A program made the position numbers and the translations under genes. The notes beneath the pieces are model-generated. The model did no database searches, was not told where the DNA came from, and saw only the letters and a program-made list of their open reading frames with translations. From a virus, in the IMG/VR virus record IMGVR_UViG_3300027805_000008, positions 27,330 to 91,329 of that record: 64,000 bases of DNA; one strand, written 5' to 3'. Shown in pieces: positions 2,443 through 63,096 of this stretch (position 1 is the stretch's first letter; every line of letters begins with the position of its first letter).

Positions 2443-3771
2443 ATGAATATTGAGAAATCTCTTTGGTCTTCGCATGGCGACAACATTACGTTGTCCGTGC
2501 CTTTTACCAAAGTTAACCGTGAAAAAAGAACAGTCTCAGGATTTGCAACTCTAGATAATCTTGACCAGACTGGTGACGTTGTTACTGCAGATGCAAGCAT
2601 TAAAGCGTTTGAAAATTTTCGTGGAAATATTCGTGAGATGCATGGATCAAATGCAGTTGGCAAAATGGTTTCATTTAAGCCAGAAACATTTTATGATCCT
2701 ACTACAAAAGAATTTTATAATGGAGTGTATGTTGATGCATACATCTCAAAGGGCGCACAGGATACTTGGGAAAAGATTCTTGATGGAACTTTAGCAGGAT
2801 TTTCAATTGGCGGAAAGATTATAGATTCAGAAAACGAAGTTAACAAGTCAACTGGTAAGCCAGTTAGATTTATTAAAGAATACTCATTGATGGAGCTATC
2901 AGTAGTTGATTCTCCAGCAAACGAGCTATGCAACATTTTGTCTGTTCAAAAAATGAACGGTCAGCTAGTATTTAAAGGAATGGCAACAGAAGTTGTAGCA
3001 GAAAATATTTTTTATTGTGCAGATAGCGATTCGGTATTTGTATCAACAGAATCATCATATGATTCTCCAGTTACAGGTAAGCCTGCGACACTAATTGGGT
3101 GGGTTGAATCAAACGATGTTAACAAAGCAAAAGAGATAGATAAGATTCTTGATTTACATAAAAAGTCAAGATTGTCGATGCCTGAAACACAAATTGCAAA
3201 ACAGGCAGACATAGAAGGAGGTAAAGAAGTGTCAGATAATACAGAAAACGTAGTTGCAGAAGATGCAGTAGCACCAGAAGCAGCCGTAGAAGACACAGCA
3301 GTAGATGCTCCCGTTGAGGAAGCACCAGCTGTTGAAGAAGCTCCTGCAGATGCAGTAGCAGACGCTTCTGCCGAAACTCTAGAAAAAGCAGCCGACGTAT
3401 CAGAAGTTATGGTTGATGAACCTGATTTTGCAAAGATGCTTGGCGATCTTAAAGGCTTTTTCTCAGAAACACTAAATAAGGCTTCAGAAGCAAATGCTGC
3501 TCAAGTTTCAGCTATTAAAGAAACAGTTGAAACATTTAGCAAGAGCGTTGATGGCCGTATTTCAGAATTGGCAGAACAGCATACAGCACTTTCAAAGGCT
3601 GTAGAAGATATCAAGAACACGATTGATGGCGTAGAAAAGCGTGTCGATGCAGTAGAATCAGAGACTGCAATTAAGAAGTCCTCGGACCTTGGCGGGTCTC
3701 AGGAAGTAACAATCAAAAAATCAAAGTGGAACGGTTCTTTCCTCGGTTCCGTAAATGAAATTTTTAACTAA
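2443..3771 (+). CDS. Prohead protease fused to scaffold
   Basis: Encodes 442 residues. Residues ~1-170 form an XkdF-like/HK97-type serine protease domain: the catalytic His candidate lies in REMHGSNAVGKM near residue 66 and the Ser in SLMELSVVDSPAN near 150. Residues ~270-420 are acidic, Ala/Glu/Val-rich and then coiled-coil, as expected of a scaffolding domain that is degraded as the capsid matures. The C-terminus carries KKSKWNGSF, probably the capsid contact; a near copy ends the protein at 54073-54939. The gene lies between portal and major capsid genes. Confidence 0.85.
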   Translation: MNIEKSLWSSHGDNITLSVPFTKVNREKRTVSGFATLDNLDQTGDVVTADASIKAFENFRGNIREMHGSNAVGKMVSFKPETFYDPTTKEFYNGVYVDAYISKGAQDTWEKILDGTLAGFSIGGKIIDSENEVNKSTGKPVRFIKEYSLMELSVVDSPANELCNILSVQKMNGQLVFKGMATEVVAENIFYCADSDSVFVSTESSYDSPVTGKPATLIGWVESNDVNKAKEIDKILDLHKKSRLSMPETQIAKQADIEGGKEVSDNTENVVAEDAVAPEAAVEDTAVDAPVEEAPAVEEAPADAVADASAETLEKAADVSEVMVDEPDFAKMLGDLKGFFSETLNKASEANAAQVSAIKETVETFSKSVDGRISELAEQHTALSKAVEDIKNTIDGVEKRVDAVESETAIKKSSDLGGSQEVTIKKSKWNGSFLGSVNEIFN

Positions 3772-44160: not shown

Positions 44161-44305
44161 TCATGTTTATAAGGAAATGGATACAGATTTGTGTCCAGAA
44201 TGTGCCATGCCTACGCATAGAATTGATTGGAAAGAAGTAGCACGATCACATAAAGAGTGGATTGATAGTGGTAAGGCAACTACTCAAGGATGGTGGTCAA
44301 TATAA
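44150..44305 (+). CDS. Small Cys/His protein between terminase genes
   Basis: Encodes 51 residues. C3, H5 and CPEC near residue 15 suggest zinc binding; the C-terminus is Trp-rich (TTQGWWSI). It overlaps the upstream gene by 11 nt and its stop overlaps the terminase start. Function is unknown. Confidence 0.55.
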   Translation: MYCDHVYKEMDTDLCPECAMPTHRIDWKEVARSHKEWIDSGKATTQGWWSI

Positions 44306-46095
44306 TGGAACTTAACTTTAATGATTTAATTGACATTCTAGACGGAGAAGAGTTTGATGAGCGCCCAGTAGATCTACGCACATTTGTAACTAGTCCAGAT
44401 TACCTAGGCCTACCGCCACTTTCTGAATACCAATATATATTAATTGAAAAATCTTCTCAGGTGTATAAAGAATCTACTTTGATAAAACTATTTGGCGAAG
44501 ATGAAGGCCGAAGAATGTTTAAGCAAACTGCTAACGAAGTGGTTGCTCAGCTAGGAAAGGGTTCTGGTAAAGATTATTGTTCTACTATATCAGTAGCCTA
44601 TATAGTATATTTACTATTGTGTTTAAAAGATCCAGCTCAATATTATGGAAAGCCTCCTGGAGACTCTATTGATATAATTAATATTGCTATTAACGCACAG
44701 CAGGCAAATAACGTTTTCTTTAAGGGATTCAGGACACGTATAGATAGGTCTCCCTGGTTTATTGGGAAATATACTGAAAAAGCTTCTGAAATAAAGTTTA
44801 ATAAAAATATAACAGTACACTCAGGGCACTCGGAGCGAGAGGCCTGGGAAGGATATAACGTTATCGTAATCATCCTTGACGAAATCTCAGGATTTGCTAC
44901 AGAGAATACAACTGGTCACGAACAGGCTAAAACTGGTAGTGCTATATATGAGATGTATCGTGCCTCTGTTGATTCACGTTTTCCAGATTATGGAAAAGTT
45001 ATTCTGCTTTCATTTCCAAGATATAAAAACGATTATATTCAACAAAGATATGAAGATGTTGTTGCAGAAAAAGAAATAGTTATTAGAACGCATCATTTCA
45101 AGTTAGACGATTCTTTGCCAGACGGAACAGAAGGCAATGAATTTGATATTGAGTGGGAAGAAGATCATATCCTATCTTACAAATACCCTAGAATGTATGC
45201 ATTAAAAAGACCAACGTGGGAGATTAATCCAACTAGAAGCATTGATGATTTTAAAGTAGCCTTTTATAAAAATGCTCCAGACGCACTAGGAAGATTCGCC
45301 TGCATGCCATCAGAGGCAATAGATGCATTTTTTAAGTCTAGAGAAAAAATTGAAAAGTCTTTTAGCAATATGGCTTCAGCCGTAGATGAGTTTGGTAGGT
45401 TCGAGCCTTGGTTTGCACCAGACCCAGATAAAGAATATTTTATACACGTTGACCTAGCTCAAAAACACGATCATTGTGCAGTTGCAATGGCTCACGTACA
45501 AAAATGGGTAAATGTAAAAGTAACAGACACATACTCTCAGCCAGCACCCATTGTTGAAGTTGATGCAGTTAGATATTGGACTCCAACTCCAGATAAATCA
45601 GTAGATTTTACAGAAGTAAAAGATTATATACTATCTCTAAGGACAAAGGGGTTTAAGGTTAGGGTCTGCACCTTTGACAGATGGAATTCTCATGATATGA
45701 TGCAGCAATTAAAACAGTATGGAATTAATACTGAAACTTTATCTGTTGCTAAGAAGCATTACGACGATATGGCAATGGTTGTTGCTGAAGATAGGCTTAC
45801 TGGACCACATATTCAATTATTAATTGACGAATTATTGCAGTTAAAAATTATGAGAGATAGGGTTGACCACCCAAGAAAGGGATCTAAGGACTTAGCAGAC
45901 GCCGTCTGTGGATCTATATTTAATGCTATTAGTAGAAGTAGGCCACAAAATAATGAAGAGATAGATATTCACACCTATACATCTTTAAAGTGGGATAGAG
46001 AAGAAGACGAAGATACAATTGTTACAAACATGATAAGGCCACCAAGAATGCCAAAGGATTTATCAGATGTATTAGACGGAATGGAAATAGTATGA
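44305..46095 (+). CDS. terL: Terminase large subunit
   Basis: Encodes 596 residues from ATG 44305; an upstream in-frame start at 44290 sits in the preceding gene. The ATPase has Walker A LGKGSGKD (residues 83-90) and Walker B IILDEISG (D192, E193). The RNase H-like nuclease shows HVDLAQ (D383), TFDRWN (D458) and DLADAV (D532). It translocates DNA into the capsid through the portal and cuts it. It is unusual in lying more than 43 kb from the portal gene. Confidence 0.93.
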   Translation: MELNFNDLIDILDGEEFDERPVDLRTFVTSPDYLGLPPLSEYQYILIEKSSQVYKESTLIKLFGEDEGRRMFKQTANEVVAQLGKGSGKDYCSTISVAYIVYLLLCLKDPAQYYGKPPGDSIDIINIAINAQQANNVFFKGFRTRIDRSPWFIGKYTEKASEIKFNKNITVHSGHSEREAWEGYNVIVIILDEISGFATENTTGHEQAKTGSAIYEMYRASVDSRFPDYGKVILLSFPRYKNDYIQQRYEDVVAEKEIVIRTHHFKLDDSLPDGTEGNEFDIEWEEDHILSYKYPRMYALKRPTWEINPTRSIDDFKVAFYKNAPDALGRFACMPSEAIDAFFKSREKIEKSFSNMASAVDEFGRFEPWFAPDPDKEYFIHVDLAQKHDHCAVAMAHVQKWVNVKVTDTYSQPAPIVEVDAVRYWTPTPDKSVDFTEVKDYILSLRTKGFKVRVCTFDRWNSHDMMQQLKQYGINTETLSVAKKHYDDMAMVVAEDRLTGPHIQLLIDELLQLKIMRDRVDHPRKGSKDLADAVCGSIFNAISRSRPQNNEEIDIHTYTSLKWDREEDEDTIVTNMIRPPRMPKDLSDVLDGMEIV

Positions 46096-46855: not shown

Positions 46856-47893
46856 ATGAGAAATAAATCTATAGTCATAACGCTAGCATTGGTTGCTAGT
46901 ATCTTTACATCACATCCCGCCACCGCATCAGAAGATGTAGTTGGATCGGGATCATCATTTATATCAAATTACCTTGACGCATGCAGAATTAGTTATGCCA
47001 AGGCAACTGGAAACACCATAACCTATTCTTCATTAGGATCTGGTGCTGGTAGATCACAATTAAACAATAAGATCATCGACTTTGCTGGAACAGATACTCC
47101 ATATAATCCAGGAGAACTAAAGCCATCTGGTATAGTCTACGTTCCTTTTATTGCTGGCCCCATTGGAGTCATCTATAGACTTGATGGATATTCAAAGCCT
47201 ATACAGCTTAAAAAGGAAACGTTGGCAAATATTTTTGCAGGTAAGATTACAAAATGGAATCATAAGTCTATTATTTCAGATAACACAATTAAGGGAGTCA
47301 AGCCAAAGATTCCAGCAACAGCTATTCGAATTGCTTATCGTGCAGACGGATCTGGGACAAGCCAGATATTCACAGAGTATTTAAATGCAGTAGCTCCAAC
47401 AATTTGGACTAAGGCAGGCAATAAAGACTTTAAGAGCGCTTACCCTGGAACGTTGTCTTTTAGCTCTCAGGCAGGTTCAGGATCTCATGGAGTCGTAATG
47501 ATAGCCCGCCAAATGAATGGCGTAATAACATACGCAGAGTCCTCATTTGCTGGCGGATTAAAACTTGCCCTAATTGAAAATGGTGCTGGTAAATTTACTG
47601 CTCCTACTTCAAAAGCAGCATCTCAATTCCTTAGTGATTTTGAGCCATTGGCTAACGGACTCATAAAAGCAAACTATAACAATAAAAACCCTTTATCGTA
47701 TAACGTATCGGCATTCAGTTATATCGTTGCATTTAAGGAAAGCACACCGAAAAACGATGCAGTAAAAGAGTTCTTGTCTTTTGCTGTAACCAAGTGCAAT
47801 AAAGAGGCCGTGGCCACTGGGTATTCCCCATTAGTTGGCCCAGTTTTAGCTATTGCTAAGTCTAAAATAGCTGAAGTTTCCTCTGGCGAATAA
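46856..47893 (+). CDS. pstS: PstS phosphate-binding protein
   Basis: Encodes 345 residues. A signal peptide covers residues 1-24 (Ala-Thr-Ala before the cleavage site) and there is no lipobox Cys. Phosphate-binding loops are present: GSGSSF (30-35), DFAGTDTPY near 76 and RADGSGTS near 162-169. It delivers phosphate to the host PstCAB importer, an auxiliary metabolic function best known from marine cyanophages. The upstream repeats suggest it answers to host phosphate control. Confidence 0.92.
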   Translation: MRNKSIVITLALVASIFTSHPATASEDVVGSGSSFISNYLDACRISYAKATGNTITYSSLGSGAGRSQLNNKIIDFAGTDTPYNPGELKPSGIVYVPFIAGPIGVIYRLDGYSKPIQLKKETLANIFAGKITKWNHKSIISDNTIKGVKPKIPATAIRIAYRADGSGTSQIFTEYLNAVAPTIWTKAGNKDFKSAYPGTLSFSSQAGSGSHGVVMIARQMNGVITYAESSFAGGLKLALIENGAGKFTAPTSKAASQFLSDFEPLANGLIKANYNNKNPLSYNVSAFSYIVAFKESTPKNDAVKEFLSFAVTKCNKEAVATGYSPLVGPVLAIAKSKIAEVSSGE

Positions 47894-47974: not shown

Positions 47975-48400
47975 ATGGTAACATCATACACATTGGATCT
48001 TTTTAAGGATCCATTTTTTATTGGCTTTAATCGTGAACTAGATAGACTTACAAAAGTTCACAGCCACGCATCACACTCAACATACCCACCTTATAACGTA
48101 ATCAAAACAGACGACGAAGATACATTTTTAATCGAAGTTGCTGTGGCGGGTTTTGCAAAAGAAGACATTGAAATCACTGTAAAGGATCAGACTCTTACCG
48201 TAAAGGGAGAGCTTAAGGATATTACAGAAGATGCAAAATTCGTGCATAAGGGTATTGCAACTCGTAAATTCACAAGAGAATTTGCTCTTGGAGAATATAT
48301 TGAGGTTACTGGTGCAAAGGTTGAAAATGGTATGCTAACTATTAATTTAGAGCGTGTCGTTCCTGAAGAGGAAAAGCCAAAGACCATCAAAATCAAGTAA
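47975..48400 (+). CDS. Hsp20 small heat-shock protein
   Basis: Encodes 141 residues. The alpha-crystallin domain spans ~40-130: YNVIKTDDEDTFLIEVAVAG (key elements FLIEVAVAGF, DIEITVKDQTLTVKGE), FTREFALGEYIE and the C-terminal VENGMLTINL, ending with the I-x-I tail (KTIKIK). It holds unfolding proteins in large oligomers. Small Hsps occur in cyanophages and may help capsid assembly or protect host enzymes. Confidence 0.92.
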   Translation: MVTSYTLDLFKDPFFIGFNRELDRLTKVHSHASHSTYPPYNVIKTDDEDTFLIEVAVAGFAKEDIEITVKDQTLTVKGELKDITEDAKFVHKGIATRKFTREFALGEYIEVTGAKVENGMLTINLERVVPEEEKPKTIKIK

Positions 48401-49178: not shown

Positions 49179-52100
49179 TTGACTAGAAAGTTACAGTACT
49201 TTGTAACCAGCCTTTTTATTATCGGCTGGCTTTTCCTTTTTGGGCCCAGTGTAGCAAATGCTGATGAGCCAACAGTTCAAGTAACTCCAGCTAATCCTTC
49301 TTCAGATACCGCCACAGCAACCACTCCTGTTACAGTTGAGATAGTTGCAGACAAGGTTGAAGCGGCAGCAGAGACATTGCAGGCAGCGGCAGAAACACAG
49401 GCAACAGCAATCACTACTACAATTCAGGCAAATGTTCCTAACACAACAACAGAGCAAGCAGCTACAATTGCTACTACACAAGAACCAATTGCTACTGCAG
49501 TAGCAGAGGCTACGGTAAAGGTACAAGAGGCCACAACAGCGATTCAGTCTGCTGAGACAGCAGTTGCAGTTGCAGAGTCAGCAACAACAGTTGTTGTTGC
49601 AGCAACCGCAGTTGTTGCAGAAAAGGTTGAAGAGGTTGCAACAGCAACAGCGGCTAAAGATACTGCTGTGCAAAATAACCAAGTAGCCGAAACAAATTTA
49701 AATACGCAAACTCCTATTACTATTGCTTCTCAGGCGGCCTACGATACAGCAAGAGATAACACAAATGCAGCACAGACAGACTTAAATGCCAAGCAGGAAA
49801 CTTTAAATTCAGCCACGACTGCAGTTCAAGTACAGACAGCAGTTGTTGCATTAGATCAATCTGCGGTAAATGCGGCACAAGCAGTAGTAGATGCAAATAC
49901 TTCTCCAGGACTTAATGTAACCGTTTACAGCAATCCAGGAACTGGGGGTTCCCCAGCTCAGGGAGGTACTGTTGTCTATACTGGAAAAGATACTAACGGT
50001 ATCAATGAGCAATACGGAGGCGGCGGCCCAACAGTAAATGGTGGGACAACAACTACTACTGAAACATTTAGCGGCAATAAGTTAAATACAAATATTGGAA
50101 TTACAGTAAATGGTACTCCTGTTTCAACTACAAACAATAGCGGTGTTTATATTGCTTCAATTGGTTGGCCAGGGGGACAAGATCCATCGCTAACCATGTA
50201 TGGTGCAACTGCTAATACAACTATAACAGTTCCAGCAAATACAGTTAATGCGAGTTTTCAAATGTTTGCTAAGAATGGCGACTCAACTGGAACTGTAACA
50301 TATACAGATGGAACAACAGAGTCGTTCACCTTGCAAAACAATGTAAGCTCTGAGTATCCAAATTATACTCATACAGAGACCTTTGTAGCACCAGAAGGAA
50401 AGAAGATAGCAACTATTCTTATACCAGCAAACTGGGACTATTATGCTATAGATAACGTATCTGCAACTACACAAACTACAACAACCGTAACAGAAGATTT
50501 TCAAATTAAGTGGGATGGAATATGGACTCCACAGACAACGGGAACTCAGTATATTACTGCTCCAGCAGATGACGGAGTTATATTAAAATTAGATGGGCAA
50601 GTAGTTATTAATGACTGGGTTGATAAAGGTGGCGGAGGGTCAACAGCAGATGTTTCGACCACAGCTGGGGTCTCTAAAACTTTTGAAATGTGGTACTACG
50701 AAAATGGTGGAGGAGCTGCAGTTTCCCTACAAAGATATAATGGAAGCACTTGGGAGGTAATTCCAGCTTCTGAGTTCTCTACTTCTTCAGCAACACCTCA
50801 ACAAATAGCAACCTTAAATGCCGCAAAGACTACCCTTGCGACAGATACGGCTACTCTAAATACTTTAACTACACAAAAAGTAACAGCTGAGACCGCAGTA
50901 AACGCTGCAACTTCTGCTTTAACAACTGCACAAGCAACTCAATCTTCCGCTGCCACCACCATGCTTGCCCAAGAAGCAGTTCAAGCTGTAGTTCAGCAGG
51001 CAGCTTGGGATACTCGTGCAGCAGTAGAAACTACTACAGCAAACTTGACAGCAGCAAATCAAAACTTAACAAATGCTAATCAAAACTTAACAACTGCTAA
51101 TCAAAACCTACAGGTGGCAATTCAAGCAGCAGACTCTCTTGCTAATACGGCAACAACAAAAGTAAATGAAGCAGTAACTGCAATGACAAATGCTGCTCAG
51201 GTTACTACAAATTATTATGCAGAACAGCAAGCGTTAGCACAAGCAGCTGCACAAGCTGCAGCGCAAGCTGCAGCACAACAAGCCGCACAAGAAGCTACAG
51301 CAGCGGAAGCAGCAGCAGCTCAAGCAGAAGCACAAGCTAAAGCAGCCGCTGAAGCAGCGGCAAAAGCTGAAGCAGAAGCAAAAGCAGCTGCAGAAGCTGC
51401 AGCAAAAGCAGAAGCCGAAGCTAAAGCAGCCGCTGAAGCAGCGGCAAAAGCTGAAGCAGATAGAGTTGCTGCTGAAGAAGCAGCAGCTAAGGCAGAGGCA
51501 GATCGTGTAGCAGCAGAAGAAGCTGCAGCAAAAGCAGAGCAAGAGGCTAAAGAGCAAGCGGAAGCAGATGCAAAAGCAGAATCAGATAGATTAGAAGCAG
51601 AGGCAGAGGCTGCAAGAGAAGCGGAAGAGCAAGCAAAGGCAGAAGCAGAGGCTAAGGCACAAGAAGAAGCAAACGCTAAAGCAGAAGCAGAAGCAAAGCA
51701 AGCGGAGGCTGAAGCTAAACAAGCAGAAGCAGATAAGTTAAAGGCGGAAGCAGAAGCAAAGCAAGCAGAAAAGGAAGCCCTTGATAAAGCAATAGAAGAT
51801 GCTAAAGCAGGTAAAGAATTAACTGAAGAGCAAAAAGATGCAGTAGTTGCTACATTGATTGAAGATTTAAAGCCAGGGCAAGCAGTAAGTTCTGCAGACA
51901 TTAAAGCATCTGGAATTGAGTATAAAGATCTTCCAGCAGCAACACCAGTAGATGTTAGAACAGATGAAAATGGAAATGCAGTTGTAATTACTGCAGCAGT
52001 TGCTGCACAAGTAGAGCTACTTCAGGATCCAGGAGCACTAGTAGAAGAATTATTTACAAATCCAGCAGCAGCTTTGGCGGCATTTGGATCAATTGGCGCA

Positions 52101-52298
52101 GACATGTCTGAAGAAGAAAGAGAAGAAGCAACAGAGATGGTTGTAGCTACAGTAGTTGCAGCAGGTGCTGCAATCAATGCAGCAGCAGTTGCCACAGGAG
52201 GAGCCACAGGAGGTGGCACGGGAGGCGGAGGAAGTTCTGGAGGAGGTGGCGCTTCAGGTGCCAATTCACCAGGTTCACGAGGAGGTAGAAAATGGTAA
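49179..52298 (+). CDS. Exported giant PA14/coiled-coil surface protein
   Basis: Encodes 1039 residues from a TTG. A signal peptide lies at ~1-28 (LFIIGWLFLFGPSVANADE). Residues ~45-240 are Ala/Thr-rich helical. At ~240-535 there are beta modules, including a PA14-like one near 445-540 (IKWDGIWTPQTTGTQYI, APADDGVILKLDGQ). Residues ~690-870 form an Ala/Glu/Lys coiled coil with 14-residue repeats, and the C-terminus is Gly-rich (GGGTGGGGSS). There is no LPxTG or lipobox. It is probably secreted or displayed on the host surface; as a virion protein it would be out of place beside Hsp20 and nuclease genes. Confidence 0.8.
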   Translation: MTRKLQYFVTSLFIIGWLFLFGPSVANADEPTVQVTPANPSSDTATATTPVTVEIVADKVEAAAETLQAAAETQATAITTTIQANVPNTTTEQAATIATTQEPIATAVAEATVKVQEATTAIQSAETAVAVAESATTVVVAATAVVAEKVEEVATATAAKDTAVQNNQVAETNLNTQTPITIASQAAYDTARDNTNAAQTDLNAKQETLNSATTAVQVQTAVVALDQSAVNAAQAVVDANTSPGLNVTVYSNPGTGGSPAQGGTVVYTGKDTNGINEQYGGGGPTVNGGTTTTTETFSGNKLNTNIGITVNGTPVSTTNNSGVYIASIGWPGGQDPSLTMYGATANTTITVPANTVNASFQMFAKNGDSTGTVTYTDGTTESFTLQNNVSSEYPNYTHTETFVAPEGKKIATILIPANWDYYAIDNVSATTQTTTTVTEDFQIKWDGIWTPQTTGTQYITAPADDGVILKLDGQVVINDWVDKGGGGSTADVSTTAGVSKTFEMWYYENGGGAAVSLQRYNGSTWEVIPASEFSTSSATPQQIATLNAAKTTLATDTATLNTLTTQKVTAETAVNAATSALTTAQATQSSAATTMLAQEAVQAVVQQAAWDTRAAVETTTANLTAANQNLTNANQNLTTANQNLQVAIQAADSLANTATTKVNEAVTAMTNAAQVTTNYYAEQQALAQAAAQAAAQAAAQQAAQEATAAEAAAAQAEAQAKAAAEAAAKAEAEAKAAAEAAAKAEAEAKAAAEAAAKAEADRVAAEEAAAKAEADRVAAEEAAAKAEQEAKEQAEADAKAESDRLEAEAEAAREAEEQAKAEAEAKAQEEANAKAEAEAKQAEAEAKQAEADKLKAEAEAKQAEKEALDKAIEDAKAGKELTEEQKDAVVATLIEDLKPGQAVSSADIKASGIEYKDLPAATPVDVRTDENGNAVVITAAVAAQVELLQDPGALVEELFTNPAAALAAFGSIGADMSEEEREEATEMVVATVVAAGAAINAAAVATGGATGGGTGGGGSSGGGGASGANSPGSRGGRKW
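51336..51461 (+). repeat. 42-bp tandem repeat (14 residues) in coiled-coil region
   Basis: Three 42-bp units begin at 51336, 51378 and 51420. Units 1 and 3 are essentially identical at the DNA level, unit 2 differs at silent sites. The protein unit is AKAAAEAAAKAEAE. Degenerate copies continue downstream. Confidence 0.8.
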
Positions 52299-52488: not shown

Positions 52489-52704
52489 ATGAGGAAATTA
52501 ATTACTATTGCCCTATCTGGGCTATTAATGCTATCATTGACTGGATGCGATTCTTTGAATAGATACCGCTATCCATGTCAAGATCCTAAAAATTGGGAAA
52601 TTGCAGAATGTAATCCTCCAGAATGTGAAGCCTCACAGACTTGCACGAAAGATGTAATAACAATTACACCTACTACACCAGAACAGGAAATAACAAATGG
52701 CTAA
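52489..52704 (+). CDS. Small lipoprotein
   Basis: Encodes 71 residues: a lipoprotein signal with lipobox LTGC (Cys20), then a mature part with six further Cys in short motifs (YRYPCQDPKNW, CNPPECEASQTC) and a Thr/Pro-rich end. It should be lipid-anchored outside the membrane. Superinfection exclusion or a lysis accessory role is plausible. The next start overlaps its end. Confidence 0.7.
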   Translation: MRKLITIALSGLLMLSLTGCDSLNRYRYPCQDPKNWEIAECNPPECEASQTCTKDVITITPTTPEQEITNG

Positions 52705-53107: not shown

Positions 53108-53331
53108 TGAAGATGAAAGATAAGTTAATGTGGGTTATCACCCTCGGAATACTTGGCTTCATTGGCTTAGTAGTTCTTGGTGAATACGCTTCAATGCTTG
53201 CACAACAGTTTACTTCAGGTGAAAAATATGGAACCAATGAAGACGCAATTGCCCTAGTGCAAAATGCACTTGTAGGACTTATAGGAATTATCGGCGGATA
53301 TTTTGCTGGTAAAAGTAAAGGTGATGAATAA
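53107..53331 (+). CDS. Holin candidate
   Basis: Encodes 74 residues with two membrane helices (LMWVITLGILGFIGLVVLG and LVGLIGIIGGYFAGK) and a charged C-terminus, the simplest holin-like layout here. Its stop overlaps the endolysin start (TAATG), the strongest positional evidence among the membrane proteins. It would permeabilise the membrane to release the endolysin. Confidence 0.6.
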   Translation: MKMKDKLMWVITLGILGFIGLVVLGEYASMLAQQFTSGEKYGTNEDAIALVQNALVGLIGIIGGYFAGKSKGDE

Positions 53332-53927
53332 TGTCGCAAGATTTTCCAGTACCAGCAGAAACAGCAAAAGCACCTAAAGGTAGCGTTGCCAGATTAATTC
53401 AGGTTGCTAAATCTCAAGTAGGATACATCGAAGGTCCTAAAGATAATGAGACAAAGTACGGCGCATATACAAAAGCTAACTTCCAGCCTTGGTGCGGATC
53501 TTTTGTAAACTGGTGTGCAAATGAAGCAGGAGTAAAGATTCCTAATACAGTTTATACCCCAGGTGGCGCAGCAGCATTTAAGAAGGCTAATGCATGGATT
53601 GACGGAGACATTGCAGATCCAGAGCCAGGAGATATCGCCTATTTTGATTTCCCTTCAGACGGTGTCGATAGAATTTCTCACGTAGGAATTGTTATTGAAG
53701 ATAACGAAGATGGAACAGTGTGGTGCATTGAAGGAAATACTTCTTCAAAGAAATCTGGAAGCCAAAGAAATGGCGGAGAGGCCTGTAAACAACTTCGTGC
53801 ATTTAAGAAAAACAAAGCAGGAGTACAGGTTTCTATAGTAGGGTTTGGACGACCAAAGTTTAAATCTGGAGGAGCAACAAGGCCAGCTGTAACAGGCTCT
53901 GCAGTATGCCCAACCTGCGGAAAGTAA
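53331..53927 (+). CDS. CHAP-domain endolysin
   Basis: Encodes 198 residues without a signal peptide. The CHAP amidase/peptidase core spans ~20-160: QPWCGSFVNWC with catalytic C55, ISHVGIVIED with H117 and WCIEGNTSS with the acidic/Asn residue. The C-terminus has a CPTCGK pair instead of a typical wall-binding repeat. It cleaves peptidoglycan at lysis. Confidence 0.88.
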   Translation: MSQDFPVPAETAKAPKGSVARLIQVAKSQVGYIEGPKDNETKYGAYTKANFQPWCGSFVNWCANEAGVKIPNTVYTPGGAAAFKKANAWIDGDIADPEPGDIAYFDFPSDGVDRISHVGIVIEDNEDGTVWCIEGNTSSKKSGSQRNGGEACKQLRAFKKNKAGVQVSIVGFGRPKFKSGGATRPAVTGSAVCPTCGK

Positions 53928-55011: not shown

Positions 55012-55239
55012 ATGTTAAATTTAACAGAACTAGGTGTCGAAGTCTTTATAAAAAAGGCAAAGAATATAACTCCATATTGGGACAATTACGATCTGATTAT
55101 ATGGAAAAAAGACAATAGTGGATTTACAAACATAAAGGGCATGTTCAGAGAGAACGCTTGGGGAACAGCAGAAAGAATTGCTGTTAACGATAACGGAATA
55201 TGGAAGTTGCCCGCAAAATATGTCAGAAATTTTAAATGA
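55012..55239 (+). CDS. Hypothetical protein before WhiB
   Basis: Encodes 75 residues, soluble and aromatic-rich (NITPYWDNYDLIIWKKDNSG, then NDNGIWKLPAKYV). It is the first gene of the WhiB operon and overlaps the WhiB start by 20 nt. No family is recognised. Confidence 0.6.
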   Translation: MLNLTELGVEVFIKKAKNITPYWDNYDLIIWKKDNSGFTNIKGMFRENAWGTAERIAVNDNGIWKLPAKYVRNFK

Positions 55240-55531
55240 TCTAGGCATAGATTCAGAAGATTTAGATTGGTTTCACCTTGGCATATGCAGAGGCATGGAC
55301 ACCAATTTATTTTATGATAAATATGAATCAGATTCTAATATAGCAAAAAATATTGATGAAATGTGTTTAAGCTGTCCAGTTATAAGCATGTGTTATGAAT
55401 CTGCAGTAGAGAATAATGAATACGGTGTTTGGGGTGGAGTTTATTTGAGCCTAGGATCAATAGATAAATCTAAAAATTTACACAAAACACAAGAGACTTG
55501 GAAAAGGTTAAAGAAAAAAAATGTTTATTGA
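55220..55531 (+). CDS. WhiB-family Fe-S transcription regulator
   Basis: Encodes 103 residues from ATG 55220; an upstream TTG at 55178 would add residues read from inside the preceding gene. The four cluster ligands are C23, C49, C52 and C58 (C-x25-C-x2-C-x5-C), followed by the YGVWGGV turn (68-74) and a basic C-terminus (WKRLKKKN). WhiB proteins bind sigma-A region 4 and redirect actinobacterial promoters. It is the strongest host marker in the window. Confidence 0.93.
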   Translation: MSEILNDLGIDSEDLDWFHLGICRGMDTNLFYDKYESDSNIAKNIDEMCLSCPVISMCYESAVENNEYGVWGGVYLSLGSIDKSKNLHKTQETWKRLKKKNVY

Positions 55532-56640: not shown

Positions 56641-57207
56641 ATGACCTGTATAGTAGCCCTTATTCACGAAAATAAAGTCCTTCTTGGGGGAGATGCCGCT
56701 GCATCTGACGACAAGTCTGGTTTAATTTTTCAAAGAACAGATCCGAAGGTTTTTAAGGTGGGCCAGTTTGGAATAGGGTTTGTAGATAGTTTTAGAATGG
56801 GTCAAATACTTCAATACAATTGGACTCCACCTAAGTATACTCCGACTGCTGGCTATAGAAACTTAGATAAATTTATTAGAACAAAGTTTGTTGAATCAAT
56901 CAAGGACGCCTTTAAAGAGCAAGGCTATGGAAATTTTAGTTCTGGTACAGAAGACGGCGATGAAGGCGGAATATTTTTAATAGCAGTGCAGGGTGCTGGC
57001 AGAATATTTACAATGGATTCTGATTTTCATATTGGAGAAGCTGACGTGCAGTATATGTCAGAGGGTGCAGGACAAGAGCTTGCGCTAGGATCTCTGTACT
57101 CTACATCAATGGTCAAGACTCCACGTAAGCGTGTACGTATGGCGTTAGAGGCTGCAGCTAAGTTTAATATGAGCGTAAGACCTCCCTTTACAATTATTGA
57201 AGTCTAG
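56641..57207 (+). CDS. Proteasome/HslV-like Ntn hydrolase
   Basis: Encodes 188 residues. After removal of Met1, Thr becomes the N-terminal nucleophile (MTCIVALI), Asp in LGGDAAAS falls at position 17 of the mature chain as in proteasome beta subunits and HslV, and a Lys follows in TDPKVFKVGQFGIGF. The alpha-beta-beta-alpha Ntn pattern continues to the end. It may form a small self-compartmentalised protease. No ATPase partner is seen; the host proteasome ATPase or none may be used. Confidence 0.8.
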   Translation: MTCIVALIHENKVLLGGDAAASDDKSGLIFQRTDPKVFKVGQFGIGFVDSFRMGQILQYNWTPPKYTPTAGYRNLDKFIRTKFVESIKDAFKEQGYGNFSSGTEDGDEGGIFLIAVQGAGRIFTMDSDFHIGEADVQYMSEGAGQELALGSLYSTSMVKTPRKRVRMALEAAAKFNMSVRPPFTIIEV

Positions 57208-57215
57208 AGTATAAT
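57187..57215 (+). promoter_or_regulatory. Sigma70-type promoter, leaderless start
   Basis: TTTACA at 57187-57192 and TATAAT at 57210-57215, 17-nt spacer. The -10 ends 6 nt before ATG 57222. There is no Shine-Dalgarno. Confidence 0.7.
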
Positions 57216-57221
57216 AGATTT

Positions 57222-57548
57222 ATGAAATGGGTCAATCGTTTATCAGCAACCCTAGTTGGATTGATCGGCGTGGGTGTAATAAAAAGCTTTTTTGAAAGAT
57301 ACGACGTTTTAATTTTTGATAAAAATGATATCGAAGAGGCTAGGCAGGAGTCTTTAAAGCCTGAGTATAACCCAGTAGATCTTCGTGGAACCCCCACGCA
57401 TGCTTGTGTTTGTGGATCAATTCATTTTTATGTAAGAGCCATATTTGAAAATTATGAGATTGCAACCTACTTTTTAGATATGCAGTGTGTTGAGTGCGGT
57501 GCCTTATTGACGGCTCCTACCCCTTTAGACAGAGAGATAACAGAGTGA
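57222..57548 (+). CDS. Membrane-anchored zinc-ribbon protein
   Basis: Encodes 108 residues. A short N-terminal hydrophobic segment (ATLVGLIGVGVIKSFF) is followed by a soluble domain with CVCG near residue 62 and CVECG near 89, a split zinc ribbon. Unrecognised; the stop overlaps the next GTG. Confidence 0.6.
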   Translation: MKWVNRLSATLVGLIGVGVIKSFFERYDVLIFDKNDIEEARQESLKPEYNPVDLRGTPTHACVCGSIHFYVRAIFENYEIATYFLDMQCVECGALLTAPTPLDREITE

Positions 57549-57715
57549 GAAAATCAGATAGAATCAGACTGCTTGAAATGGAAATGCTAAGAATGCAGTT
57601 CCAAATAGAGTATTTAAATACAGCGGTAAGGCTTTTGCTAGATGAAGCCAAGGTTACTGGGCCAGAGATGGATGCTGGCAAATGGTACAACGCTAAACTA
57701 AATAAAGATAAATAG
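57545..57715 (+). CDS. Small coiled-coil protein
   Basis: Encodes 56 residues from GTG 57545 (GTGA overlap). An upstream in-frame ATG at 57494 lies in the previous gene. It is mostly one helix (RLLEMEMLRMQFQIEYLNTA). Function is unknown. Confidence 0.5.
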   Translation: MRKSDRIRLLEMEMLRMQFQIEYLNTAVRLLLDEAKVTGPEMDAGKWYNAKLNKDK

Positions 57716-57721
57716 TAGCTA

Positions 57722-57750
57722 TTGACAGCATTAAGTATATTTAGTATTAT
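57722..57750 (+). promoter_or_regulatory. Consensus promoter, leaderless GTG start
   Basis: TTGACA at 57722-57727 and TATTAT at 57745-57750, 17-nt spacer. The -10 ends 6 nt before the GTG at 57757; the stretch between is TGTTTT, so no ribosome binding site is possible. Confidence 0.78.
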
Positions 57751-57756
57751 TGTTTT

Positions 57757-58683
57757 GTGAAGAAAAAAGTATTATTAATTGCTTTATGCATTATGTTCAT
57801 AATGCCATCATATTCCAATGCAGATCAATCTGAAAATGATATTCCAGTAATCGCAATACTTGATGGAGCGTTTGAAACCTCCTTGCCTATTTTTAAAGAT
57901 AGAATTTTATTTGAAGCATGTGTTACGGAATGGGCTTCATGCCCAAACGGTCTATCTGAGATGGAGGGTCCTGGATCTTCTACAATTAAACAAGAATGGA
58001 TTTCAAAAAATAATTTTGGTCATGGAACGCAGATGGCGTCAATAGCTGCCTTAGAAAATCCAAAAGTAAAGTTTGTGCTTGTCAGAGTTATTAGCATAGA
58101 CCATAATGGATCTAGGCTGGTGTCTAGCGAATCAACAGTTTATAATGCATTAGACTGGATTATTAAAAATAAAGATAGATTTAACATTCACTCTGTATCT
58201 ATGTCTCAAGGATATAGGATTCCGTATAGTGTGAAGAACTATTGCCCACATACTCCTATGACTGAAGAGAAGATTAAAGCCCTTATTGATGCTGGTATTC
58301 CAGTGTTTTTCCCATCAGGAAATTCTGGAGATTTATATAAAATAAATTGGCCAGCATGCATTTCTTCTTCTATTGCAATTTCAGCAACAGCGGAGAATTC
58401 AACAATCGCAAGATATACAGACTATGACCAATATAAAACAGACTTCTTTGCTAAAGGAAGTTCAAAAGCAATAAACATTAATAATAAAACTATTAATGCT
58501 ATTGGAACATCTGTAGCCACAGTAATTGCTGCTACACAGTGGGCAACAATTAAATCAGTAAATAAAAGTCTAACATATGCTCAAATATATGAGATGATTT
58601 CTAATACTGCAAAGCCAGTAAATAATTCAAAAATTATTGGCGGAAAACTAATTAACCTAAAAGGAGCGTTAAATGGAAAGTAA
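57757..58683 (+). CDS. Exported subtilisin-like serine protease
   Basis: Encodes 308 residues from a GTG. The signal peptide (LLIALCIMFIMPSYSNAD) ends near residue 22. The S8 catalytic triad is complete: D36 in AILDGAF, H89 in FGHGTQMAS, S252 in IGTSVAT, with oxyanion Asn N189 in FPSGNSG. There is no long propeptide, so it may fold unaided or be processed differently from subtilisin. It should act outside the membrane, perhaps trimming host surface proteins. The next gene begins inside its end. Confidence 0.92.
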   Translation: MKKKVLLIALCIMFIMPSYSNADQSENDIPVIAILDGAFETSLPIFKDRILFEACVTEWASCPNGLSEMEGPGSSTIKQEWISKNNFGHGTQMASIAALENPKVKFVLVRVISIDHNGSRLVSSESTVYNALDWIIKNKDRFNIHSVSMSQGYRIPYSVKNYCPHTPMTEEKIKALIDAGIPVFFPSGNSGDLYKINWPACISSSIAISATAENSTIARYTDYDQYKTDFFAKGSSKAININNKTINAIGTSVATVIAATQWATIKSVNKSLTYAQIYEMISNTAKPVNNSKIIGGKLINLKGALNGK

Positions 58684-58903
58684 TGAAAAGAGAATGTCAA
58701 TCCTAGAATCAATTATTCAGGATGTGGCAAGAGCACTTTTTCAAAAGTGGGCAAATGGTCTACCCGAAGAAAATCGCTCAGAGGAAGCACTAGCTAATTT
58801 AAATAAAAATGCTATAGACTCAACATACTTTGTTGTAAAAATGTTTATGGATCAATTTAATGCAGCAGCAGATGAATTGAAAGCACAGCCTGACGAGCAA
58901 TAA
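58673..58903 (+). CDS. Helical hypothetical protein
   Basis: Encodes 76 residues, overlapping the protease gene by 11 nt; the ATG lies within a good context (AAAGGAG at 58663). All-helical and acidic (LESIIQDVARALFQKWANG). Translational coupling to the protease suggests a partner, possibly cytoplasmic since no signal peptide is present. Confidence 0.6.
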   Translation: MESNEKRMSILESIIQDVARALFQKWANGLPEENRSEEALANLNKNAIDSTYFVVKMFMDQFNAAADELKAQPDEQ

Positions 58904-58908
58904 CCCTA

Positions 58909-58937
58909 TTGACTCTCTTATAATAATTTAGTAGAAT
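58909..58937 (+). promoter_or_regulatory. Sigma70-type promoter, leaderless start
   Basis: TTGACT at 58909-58914 and TAGAAT at 58932-58937, 17-nt spacer. The -10 ends 7 nt before ATG 58945. Confidence 0.68.
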
Positions 58938-58944
58938 AGGTACC

Positions 58945-59415
58945 ATGCAAACATTCTTACCAGAGGCGGACTTTGCCGAAACAGCAAAGCATTTAGACCG
59001 TAAGCGTTTAATTAAACAAAGTGTTGAGAACCTACAAGTTCTAAAGTCATTAGCTGGACTTTATAGTTCAGGTGCATGGAAAAATCATCCAGCAGTAAAA
59101 ATGTGGGATGGGCACGAAGACTGGCTATTTGTTTATAATGAAGCAATAATTAAAGAAATTATTATGCGTGGTTATAAAAATAGCACAAGGCAGACCTTCG
59201 ACGATATCTATCAAGAACACTTTATGCTGCTAGAGTCAGACAAGCCTTGGTGGCTAGGTGACGATAAGCTTCATTATACCCATAAGGGTCGGCTGTTTGA
59301 AAAAGATCCAGAGTCTTATTATTTCTATAATGAGTATTCAGACTATCGTGAGCTTGGGTATACATGTTGCGAAGCATGCAGTTACTATTGGCCAACCCAT
59401 GTGGAGTCAAAGTGA
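58945..59415 (+). CDS. Pyrimidine-dimer DNA glycosylase-like protein
   Basis: Encodes 156 residues. The N-terminus MQTFLPEADFAETAKHLDRKRL with KQSVENLQVL, and NHPAVKMWDGHEDWL near residue 51, match the T4 endonuclease V-related family that nicks DNA at UV dimers (key elements LDRKRL, HPAVKMW). A C-terminal TCCEACSYY cysteine group is extra. It would suit a phage of sunlit water. A GTGA overlap leads to thioredoxin. Confidence 0.75.
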   Translation: MQTFLPEADFAETAKHLDRKRLIKQSVENLQVLKSLAGLYSSGAWKNHPAVKMWDGHEDWLFVYNEAIIKEIIMRGYKNSTRQTFDDIYQEHFMLLESDKPWWLGDDKLHYTHKGRLFEKDPESYYFYNEYSDYRELGYTCCEACSYYWPTHVESK

Positions 59416-59714
59416 TAGTTACGGACACATCTTTTGAAGATGCAATTAAAAGTAACAGTTTAATCTTAGTTGATTTCTGGGCAGAATGGTGTGGACCATG
59501 CAAAAGGGTCTCCCCAATCCTAGATGAAATATCTGAATCTCATGGCTTACCAGTTGGTAAGTTAAATATTGATGAGAACCCAGAAAAAACTCAGGAATAC
59601 TCTGTACATTCAATACCGACTATGGTATTATTTAAGGATGGAATTCCAGTCCACACAGTGCTTGGCGCAAAACCCAAGCACGTGCTTCTAAAGGAGCTTG
59701 CGGAATGGATATAA
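59412..59714 (+). CDS. Thioredoxin
   Basis: Encodes 100 residues from GTG 59412; the frame extends upstream but only into the preceding gene. The active site is FWAEWCGPCKRV near residue 28, with the cis-Pro in SIPTMVLFKDG near 72. It reduces disulfides, possibly for the host ribonucleotide reductase or as a polymerase processivity factor as in T7. The start overlaps the previous stop (GTGA). Confidence 0.93.
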   Translation: MIVTDTSFEDAIKSNSLILVDFWAEWCGPCKRVSPILDEISESHGLPVGKLNIDENPEKTQEYSVHSIPTMVLFKDGIPVHTVLGAKPKHVLLKELAEWI

Positions 59715-59985: not shown

Positions 59986-61047
59986 ATGAACTCATTTAAG
60001 AAAGTATCGCTAATCATCGCTGCAGCCCTGACTAGCACAATGCTTGTAGCACCATCGGCAAATGCCAACGCAGGCACTGTCACATTGACAGTAGCAGGCT
60101 CTGCAGCAACAGGTGGAACAGTAGTAACAACTCCTGTATCACTACCAGTGCCAGCAGACAACAGCGTTGATGCAGCAGATGCGCTAAAGATTGCAGTTAC
60201 AGGTGTCGACACAGGTACAGTTGTAACGGCAGTTGCAGTAAATGCAACAATTGTTCCTGCAGTAACTGGTACTACAGTAGTAACAGCATCATCTGGAACA
60301 TCAACACTTTCAGTTTCAACAGGAACTGGAAACTCAGCAGACTTTTATGTATATACTAAAAGTACAGCAGTAGGATCAGTATCGATCACTCGTTCTGGAA
60401 CTACAACAGTTTACTATGTCCAAGGCCAAGCAGGTGCTTTGAGCTCAATTACACTAACCGCTCCTGCATCAGCAGCAGCAGGTACATCACAGGTACTTAA
60501 GGTATCTGGATTTGACGTGTTTGGTAATCCAAAGGGTGGAGCCACAATTAATACTTTGGTTTCAAGCTCTGGAGTAGCATTAGCAACAGCGCTAACAACT
60601 GACACAGCAGTAGCAACACTAGGGACAAAAGAGCAGACAGTAGCAATTCCTGCAGTTGGATCAGTAACAGTAGTTGCTTATGCAACAGTAGCAGCAGCCG
60701 TAACAGGCTTATCAGCACCAGTAGGTTCTGTAAGCGCTACAATTGTAGTCCGTGATATTGCAGCAGAACTTGCAGCAAAGAATTCAGAACTAGCAACAGC
60801 TAATGCAGCACTAGCAGCAAAGAATGCAGAACTAGCAACAGCTAATGCAGCACTTAAGGCAGCTCAAGATGCTCTAGCAGCAGAGAAAGCTGGACGTGCA
60901 TCAGATTCTGCAACTGCAACAGCAGCAGCAGTAACAGCAAAGGCAGCAGCAGATCTTGCTAAGGCTACATATGTAGCAGAGTATAATGCTCTGGCTACAA
61001 AGTGGAACAAGAAGTTCCCTAAGCTTAAGGTTAAGCTAAAGAAGTAA
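59986..61047 (+). CDS. Exported Ig-like surface protein
   Basis: Encodes 353 residues. The signal peptide (VSLIIAAALTSTMLVAPSANA) ends near residue 28. Residues ~30-255 are Thr/Val/Ala/Ser-rich beta modules, one a Big-like Ig domain (ITLTAPASAAAGTSQVLKVSG). Residues ~262-300 are a coiled coil with a 14-residue repeat (LAAKNAELATANAA, twice), and the C-terminus is basic (KWNKKFPKLKVKLKK). Codons favour GCA/ACA/GTA strongly, unlike many neighbours. It looks like a bacterial surface or S-layer-type protein acquired from a host. Confidence 0.78.
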   Translation: MNSFKKVSLIIAAALTSTMLVAPSANANAGTVTLTVAGSAATGGTVVTTPVSLPVPADNSVDAADALKIAVTGVDTGTVVTAVAVNATIVPAVTGTTVVTASSGTSTLSVSTGTGNSADFYVYTKSTAVGSVSITRSGTTTVYYVQGQAGALSSITLTAPASAAAGTSQVLKVSGFDVFGNPKGGATINTLVSSSGVALATALTTDTAVATLGTKEQTVAIPAVGSVTVVAYATVAAAVTGLSAPVGSVSATIVVRDIAAELAAKNSELATANAALAAKNAELATANAALKAAQDALAAEKAGRASDSATATAAAVTAKAAADLAKATYVAEYNALATKWNKKFPKLKVKLKK

Positions 61048-62667: not shown

Positions 62668-62801
62668 ATAAGAAAACTATCACACTAATTGGGCTACTCG
62701 TAGCCCTTGTTGCAGTTGCTTTTGCAGCATATAACAGCTTTAGTCAACTAAAAGATATTGACTATGATCTATTTGAAACGGAAGATGAAGATGATGATTA
62801 A
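62664..62801 (+). CDS. Single-span membrane protein with acidic tail
   Basis: Encodes 45 residues, overlapping the previous stop (ATGA). Membrane helix ITLIGLLVALVAVAFAAY, then a very acidic tail (FETEDEDDD). The GroES gene starts within its end. Confidence 0.55.
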   Translation: MNKKTITLIGLLVALVAVAFAAYNSFSQLKDIDYDLFETEDEDDD

Positions 62802-63096
62802 ACCAATTGGCGGAATGCTACTTGTCACAAAAAAGCAGGAAGAGGATAAGACTACTAAGTCTGGTTTAGTTATCTCTGCAGTATTCAATGACTCTGGACC
62901 CAAGATCGGAACTATCGTAGACATGGGTGCAGGAGAGGTCAACTACAAGGGCGACTTGATCCCTATCCCAGAGCTTGATATTGGGGATGAAGTTTACTTC
63001 CCAGACCACACAGGCACGGAGATTGAGGACGATCAATCTAACAAGTATCTTCTAATTAATCATAAACATATTATGGCTAAATTAGACCGCAATTAG
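62785..63096 (+). CDS. groES: GroES-like co-chaperonin
   Basis: Encodes 103 residues from ATG 62785; ATGs at 62791 and 62794 are also possible. The Cpn10 fold is recognisable: IKPIGGMLLVTKK, the mobile loop with TTKSGLVIS near residue 30, IGTIVDMGAGEV, LDIGDEVYFPDHTGTEI and a C-terminal LINHKHIMAKL. It would cap the host GroEL, as T4 gp31 does, perhaps to fold the capsid protein. No GroEL gene is seen. Confidence 0.88.
   Translation: MKMMIKPIGGMLLVTKKQEEDKTTKSGLVISAVFNDSGPKIGTIVDMGAGEVNYKGDLIPIPELDIGDEVYFPDHTGTEIEDDQSNKYLLINHKHIMAKLDRN

Follow-up and report, generated by a model that had tools for sequence, protein, structure and literature searches.

What does a phage gain from a secreted protease, and is the small protein encoded directly behind this protease its working partner? 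The question is raised by two overlapping genes at 57757-58903 of the window analysed here, a stretch of 64,000 nucleotides taken from a virus record of 91,329 bases (positions 27330-91329).

The protease and its export

Both open reading frames lie on the plus strand where the original prediction had placed them, the protease gene at 57757-58683 and the small gene at 58673-58903. The protease gene begins with GTG and encodes 308 amino acids, and its product was matched to PF00082 in the Pfam search (8.6e-19, 68.4 bits against a cut-off of 21.8) and to PHROG 3677 'protease' (2.9e-24). The catalytic residues of the S8 family align with D36, H89, N189 (in PSGNSGD) and S252 (in GTSVA) of this protein. 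The fold search of the PDB with the AlphaFold2 model (pLDDT 83.8, pTM 0.85) gave the subtilisins BPN' and Savinase at E about 1e-15 with 22-24% identity. With a PF00082 score above the cut-off, the D/H/S triad and oxyanion Asn in order and a subtilisin fold, the protein is a member of S8, and the predicted subtilisin with all four of these residues was borne out. The enzyme appears catalytically complete and its activity is strongly suggested by these residues.

The N-terminus reads VKKKVLLIALCIMFIMPSYSNA and continues with DQ; it carries KKK, a hydrophobic stretch and SNA directly before the DQ, and fits a Sec signal peptide when read by eye and by hydropathy. The signal peptide covers approximately residues 1-22 as read from the sequence, with predicted cleavage after A22. 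About 13 residues separate this site from the catalytic Asp, which ends the first strand, and therefore no propeptide, long or short, is present. The profile search found no match to the I9 propeptide in the protease, and the I9 propeptide of ~75 residues which precedes the catalytic domain in classical secreted subtilisins (S8A pre-pro-enzymes) is missing. In 102 sequences the distance from the start codon to the catalytic Asp is 32-51 residues (median 38), where the larger values are due to upstream alternative starts, so the absence of the propeptide is a property of the family, and the earlier description of a signal peptide without a long propeptide is confirmed. A strongly hydrophobic N-terminus was found in all of the 102 relatives, and export of the protease is strongly suggested.

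Four cysteines (C55, C62, C163 and C201) are invariant in all distinct relatives covering those positions and probably form two disulfides. In a pairwise comparison three of the four were located in segments which are absent from a Bacillus phage subtilase.

Distribution and conservation

Relatives of the protease were tracked in viral contigs by an alignment-based scan, which gave 486, and the same kind of scan gave 316 relatives of the small protein. When the protease was used as a single query sequence, no relatives were retrieved from the viral contigs, and the DNA pattern for GHGTQMA matched 20 contigs, only one of them (L005) having a protease relative. A PF00082 gene was present in 12 of the 41 records searched, and the small gene was present in the same 12 records (an overlapping set of 30 records). 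Wherever both genes were found they are adjacent and on the same strand (182/182 loci, a number which includes overlap as several scans matched the same contigs). The HslV-like neighbour of the protease was then used as the scan anchor, which avoids selection on the protease itself; 68 loci had room to judge, and 66 of these carry both genes and two carry the small gene only.

The family set comprises 103 distinct sequences, including a few which come from actinobacterial MAGs. In all 102 distinct relatives covering these positions the triad and the oxyanion Asn are intact, far more than chance would give. The dN/dS of the protease has a median of 0.16, with all of the 149 pairs at or below 0.24 (maximum 0.23), so the protease is kept functional by purifying selection. 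A subgroup has a longer ORF (L111 at 1186-2322, L153, L155 and L165), and the C-terminus in L111 has a proline-rich linker and a helix-like stretch of ~70 residues, which recalls the coiled-coil end of the protein encoded at 59986 in the window.

Among 50,697 annotated phage records there were 10 weak matches, all from Bacillus phages, and no close relative of the protease; at the DNA level the block matched these records in the thioredoxin region only. The claim that such proteases are rare in phages hence stands for annotated records and fails within the phage's own clade, where they occur at 66 of 68 loci. A description of these proteases was not found in the literature searched, and the papers on freshwater actinophages which were checked make no mention of proteases. 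Two of 11 members match the generic 'subtilase' model of a defence library; identity as a defence system was rejected, as these matches reflect the domain and not a defence system. The enzyme class is well known, and what is new is a clade-wide, exported and propeptide-free phage version with natural empty sites.

Promoter and empty sites

A promoter with TTGACA, a 17-nt spacer and TATTAT is located at 57722-57750 on the plus strand (11/12 match, based on the consensus only). Its 3′ end lies six bases before the GTG and the predicted start site falls on the GTG, therefore the protease mRNA is probably leaderless. Among the relatives listed, TTGAC...TTTAGTAnnAT again stands directly before the start codon, and 96 of 102 relatives have a TAnnnT box no more than 12 nt from the start. 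Only one other gene of the window has this arrangement, the pyrimidine dimer DNA glycosylase gene at 58945-59415 (PF03013, 3.6e-20), which is directly preceded by a leaderless-type promoter (TTGACT-17-TAGAAT, 58909-58937). Having its own promoter, the protease would be expressed independently of the late structural operon; the promoter match is sigma-70-like, which is no proof of early expression.

The left edge of the insert is marked by an upstream gene of 73 amino acids (57494-57715, plus strand). In the relatives L289 and L303 the protease and its promoter are cleanly absent and the stop of the 73-residue homologue overlaps the start of the small gene, the junction being TAATG in one of them and ATGAGTAA in the other. 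As these two relatives are without exactly the protease module, the protease is a dispensable moron-like insert. Loss of the module rather than an ancestral state is the simpler reading, because 66 of 68 loci carry the protease. No terminator was found in 57000-59500, and transcription therefore probably continues into the small gene; with its own promoter and empty sites but no terminator of its own, the module is moron-like and not a textbook moron.

Phage, host and neighbouring genes

The large terminase (44290-46095) resembles those of Streptomyces phages such as Francob, Gilson and BillNye, with ~63% identity, and terminase relatives with 81-96% identity are abundant in IMG/VR. The clade is one of freshwater actinophages related to the Streptomyces BE phages. 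The host is taken as actinobacterial because of a WhiB regulator (55178-55531), the terminase identity to Streptomyces phages and the occurrence of relatives in actinobacterial MAGs. There is no integrase in the record, which is possibly incomplete. In Francob, a Streptomyces relative, many tRNA genes follow the terminase, and the stretch read there has no annotated protease.

Near the protease, the HslV/Ntn-hydrolase-like gene (56641-57207, plus strand; phrog_1040, 2.6e-13) is a neighbour in 96 of 102 loci, and distant relatives of its product occur in many unrelated phages. The thioredoxin gene (59364-59714; PF00085, 5.7e-26) is a neighbour in 95 of 102 loci. Four further proteins with export signals are encoded in this region, which looks specialised for the surface of the infected cell: a PstS-like phosphate-binding protein (46856-47893), a PA14-domain protein of 1039 amino acids with TTG start (49179-52298), a small lipoprotein with an LTGC lipobox (52489-52704) and a coiled-coil protein (59986-61047). 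The window also encodes two phage-borne chaperones, HSP20 (47975-48400, 3.3e-20) and Cpn10 (62758-63096, 4.5e-17).

Related proteases and their origin

The nearest known likeness is given by subtilases from freshwater Actinomycetota MAGs (L285-L288, L367-L376 and L381), which have a signal peptide, no propeptide, the four cysteines and the triad as in the phage protein; those of L285-L288 are 30-35% identical to the phage protease. They are chromosomal, patchy and uncharacterised, and lack the 76-residue neighbour which accompanies the phage gene. Of 201 genomes from one actinobacterial order, 14 carry chromosomal relatives (E<=1e-15), again in a patchy manner, and these relatives share the triad and, with one distant exception, the cysteines. 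A tree of 77 sequences, whose root is not fixed, groups the phage proteins together and leaves most of the cellular ones outside; four cellular sequences, three of them on long branches, fall within the group, but the test does not reject monophyly of the phage proteins (p-AU 0.52). The gene was likely acquired long ago from a freshwater actinobacterium, with the direction of transfer inferred.

Other known subtilases are more remote. BPN' and Savinase (S8A) have the fold and catalytic residues in common with the phage protease but not the four cysteines or the absence of the propeptide. The Bacillus phage subtilases (Goe3/Goe25 group; PHROG 3677) are likewise phage-borne S8 domains with about 28% identity; compared with one phage subtilisin of this kind, the protease has a longer D-to-H segment and an extra loop, which hold three of the cysteines, and the Goe25 subtilase, the one translated, is without a signal peptide like the intracellular serine proteases. 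The best structural match among viral models is 'AprE' of an uncultured Caudovirales phage (A0A6J5NRV7, E 9.7e-19), having 487 amino acids against 308. The best NCBIfam match is to the T7SS mycosins (TIGR03921), which are also secreted subtilases of actinobacteria; identity as a mycosin was rejected, as the score is 35.3 bits against a cut-off of 278.75, a C-terminal membrane anchor is absent and no ESX genes were seen nearby.

Possible role of the protease

The reading which we hold to be probable is that of a moron-like, exported and propeptide-free subtilase which cleaves proteins in the envelope or on the surface of the infected cell, with receptor removal as its leading candidate role. 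The leaderless promoter and the subtilase gene would form a module in the accessory region of the freshwater actinophage clade; the host would transcribe it, and Sec would export the protease. Once outside the membrane the enzyme would fold with no propeptide, two disulfides probably stabilising it, and may then cut proteins which belong to the envelope of the infected actinobacterium or are exposed on its surface; the foremost candidates are surface proteins which serve as phage receptors. With the receptor lost, competing phages and the phage's own progeny would fail to adsorb to infected cells and debris (superinfection exclusion). Receptor removal as the benefit is our guess, and a somewhat less than even one. 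Where the HslV-like neighbour is ~78% identical (70-85%), identity is 49% for the protease, 51% for thioredoxin and 44.5% for the exported 59986 protein. Accelerated divergence of the protease as a mark of an arms race was accordingly rejected, since the protease diverges no more than thioredoxin or the 59986 protein; a clear sign of such a race with a receptor was looked for and not found.

A role of the homologues in capsid maturation, which the original prediction had named as the finding that would count against it, was checked and rejected, as the window encodes a separate head maturation protease (2443-3771; phrog_9427, 3e-130), the subtilase has a signal peptide and its gene is far from the head genes. 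Outside the membrane of the infected actinobacterium the enzyme could encounter surface proteins, proteins bound to the wall and the exports of the phage itself. In our ranking the removal of surface proteins stands first, its foremost proposed benefit being the loss of the receptor; help in lysis comes second and processing of the phage's exports third.

The protease could aid lysis or release by degrading surface or wall-associated proteins late in infection, which would help the CHAP endolysin or the release of virions. A CHAP enzyme, separate from the protease, and small membrane proteins form a putative lysis cassette (53331-53927) 4 kb upstream, and the gene at 53331 is syntenic in 63 of 102 loci, that is in most relatives. 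However, some ten genes including those of WhiB and the HslV-like protein stand between the cassette and the protease, the protease has a promoter of its own, and the protease-less relative L251 retains the region of the cassette, so we consider this role unlikely. Maturation of the phage's own exports is more improbable still: no fewer than four other exported proteins have their genes within 12 kb, the PA14, coiled-coil and PstS proteins being the proposed substrates, and the coiled-coil protein encoded at 59986 is a common neighbour (73/102 loci), but its homologue is retained in both of the protease-less relatives.

The small protein offers another possibility, that of a chaperone or temporary inhibitor which replaces the missing propeptide. 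The serine protease ASP of Aeromonas sobria (S8B) is among the few subtilases known without a propeptide, and its chaperone ORF2 is encoded just downstream (PMC9549277, PMC5638518); the phage locus has the same layout of a propeptide-less secreted subtilase and a small gene, and their adjacency at every locus with both genes fits such a pair. The small gene begins with ATG, overlaps the end of the protease gene by 11 nt and has its ribosome-binding site AAAGGAG inside it (58660-58666, plus strand), which makes translational coupling to the protease plausible. Its 76-residue product is modelled as a two-helix hairpin (pLDDT 87), in agreement with the helical protein foreseen, and is predicted to be cytoplasmic. 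The product gave no PDB fold match at E<=0.001, no Pfam match above the cut-off and no match in the annotated phage records; PHROG gave no match for the protein of the window and only chance-level ones for its relatives.

Its role as the functional partner of the protease did not hold. Unlike ORF2, the phage protein has neither a hydrophobic N-terminus nor an export signal, and it persists after loss of the protease, being present in all 68 anchored loci; in both protease-less loci it overlaps the upstream gene, so it is not dedicated to the protease. Chromosomal relatives of the protease are without such a neighbour, and dN/dS is lower for the small protein (0.08) than for the protease (0.16), which marks slower evolution and stronger constraint. 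For these reasons we do not regard it as a dedicated partner, and a pair of the ASP-ORF2 type is very improbable. Least probable of all is a nutritional role, in which the protease would supply the infected host with peptides released outside the cell, much as phage PstS would serve phosphate uptake: a PstS gene lies in the same region and the cellular relatives are proteases which freshwater bacteria secrete, but a diffusible product would presumably benefit neighbours in dilute lake water and a lytic infection is short.

Significance

Freshwater Actinomycetota, the likely hosts, include some of the commonest bacteria of lakes, and little is known about the effects of phages on them. Removal of surface proteins may extend to a general strategy, undescribed before, in which lytic phages that infect abundant freshwater actinobacteria would as a rule secrete a self-folding subtilase without a propeptide, which shaves the surface proteome of the infected cell, excludes rivals and frees the progeny from receptor-bearing debris; we offer this wider idea tentatively and hold it to be rather doubtful. 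The subfamily is a large set of subtilases which seemingly fold without a propeptide and is hence of interest for enzyme folding. As the exported protease is near-universal in this phage clade and natural relatives without it exist, the idea that surface proteins are cut during infection can be put to the test there.
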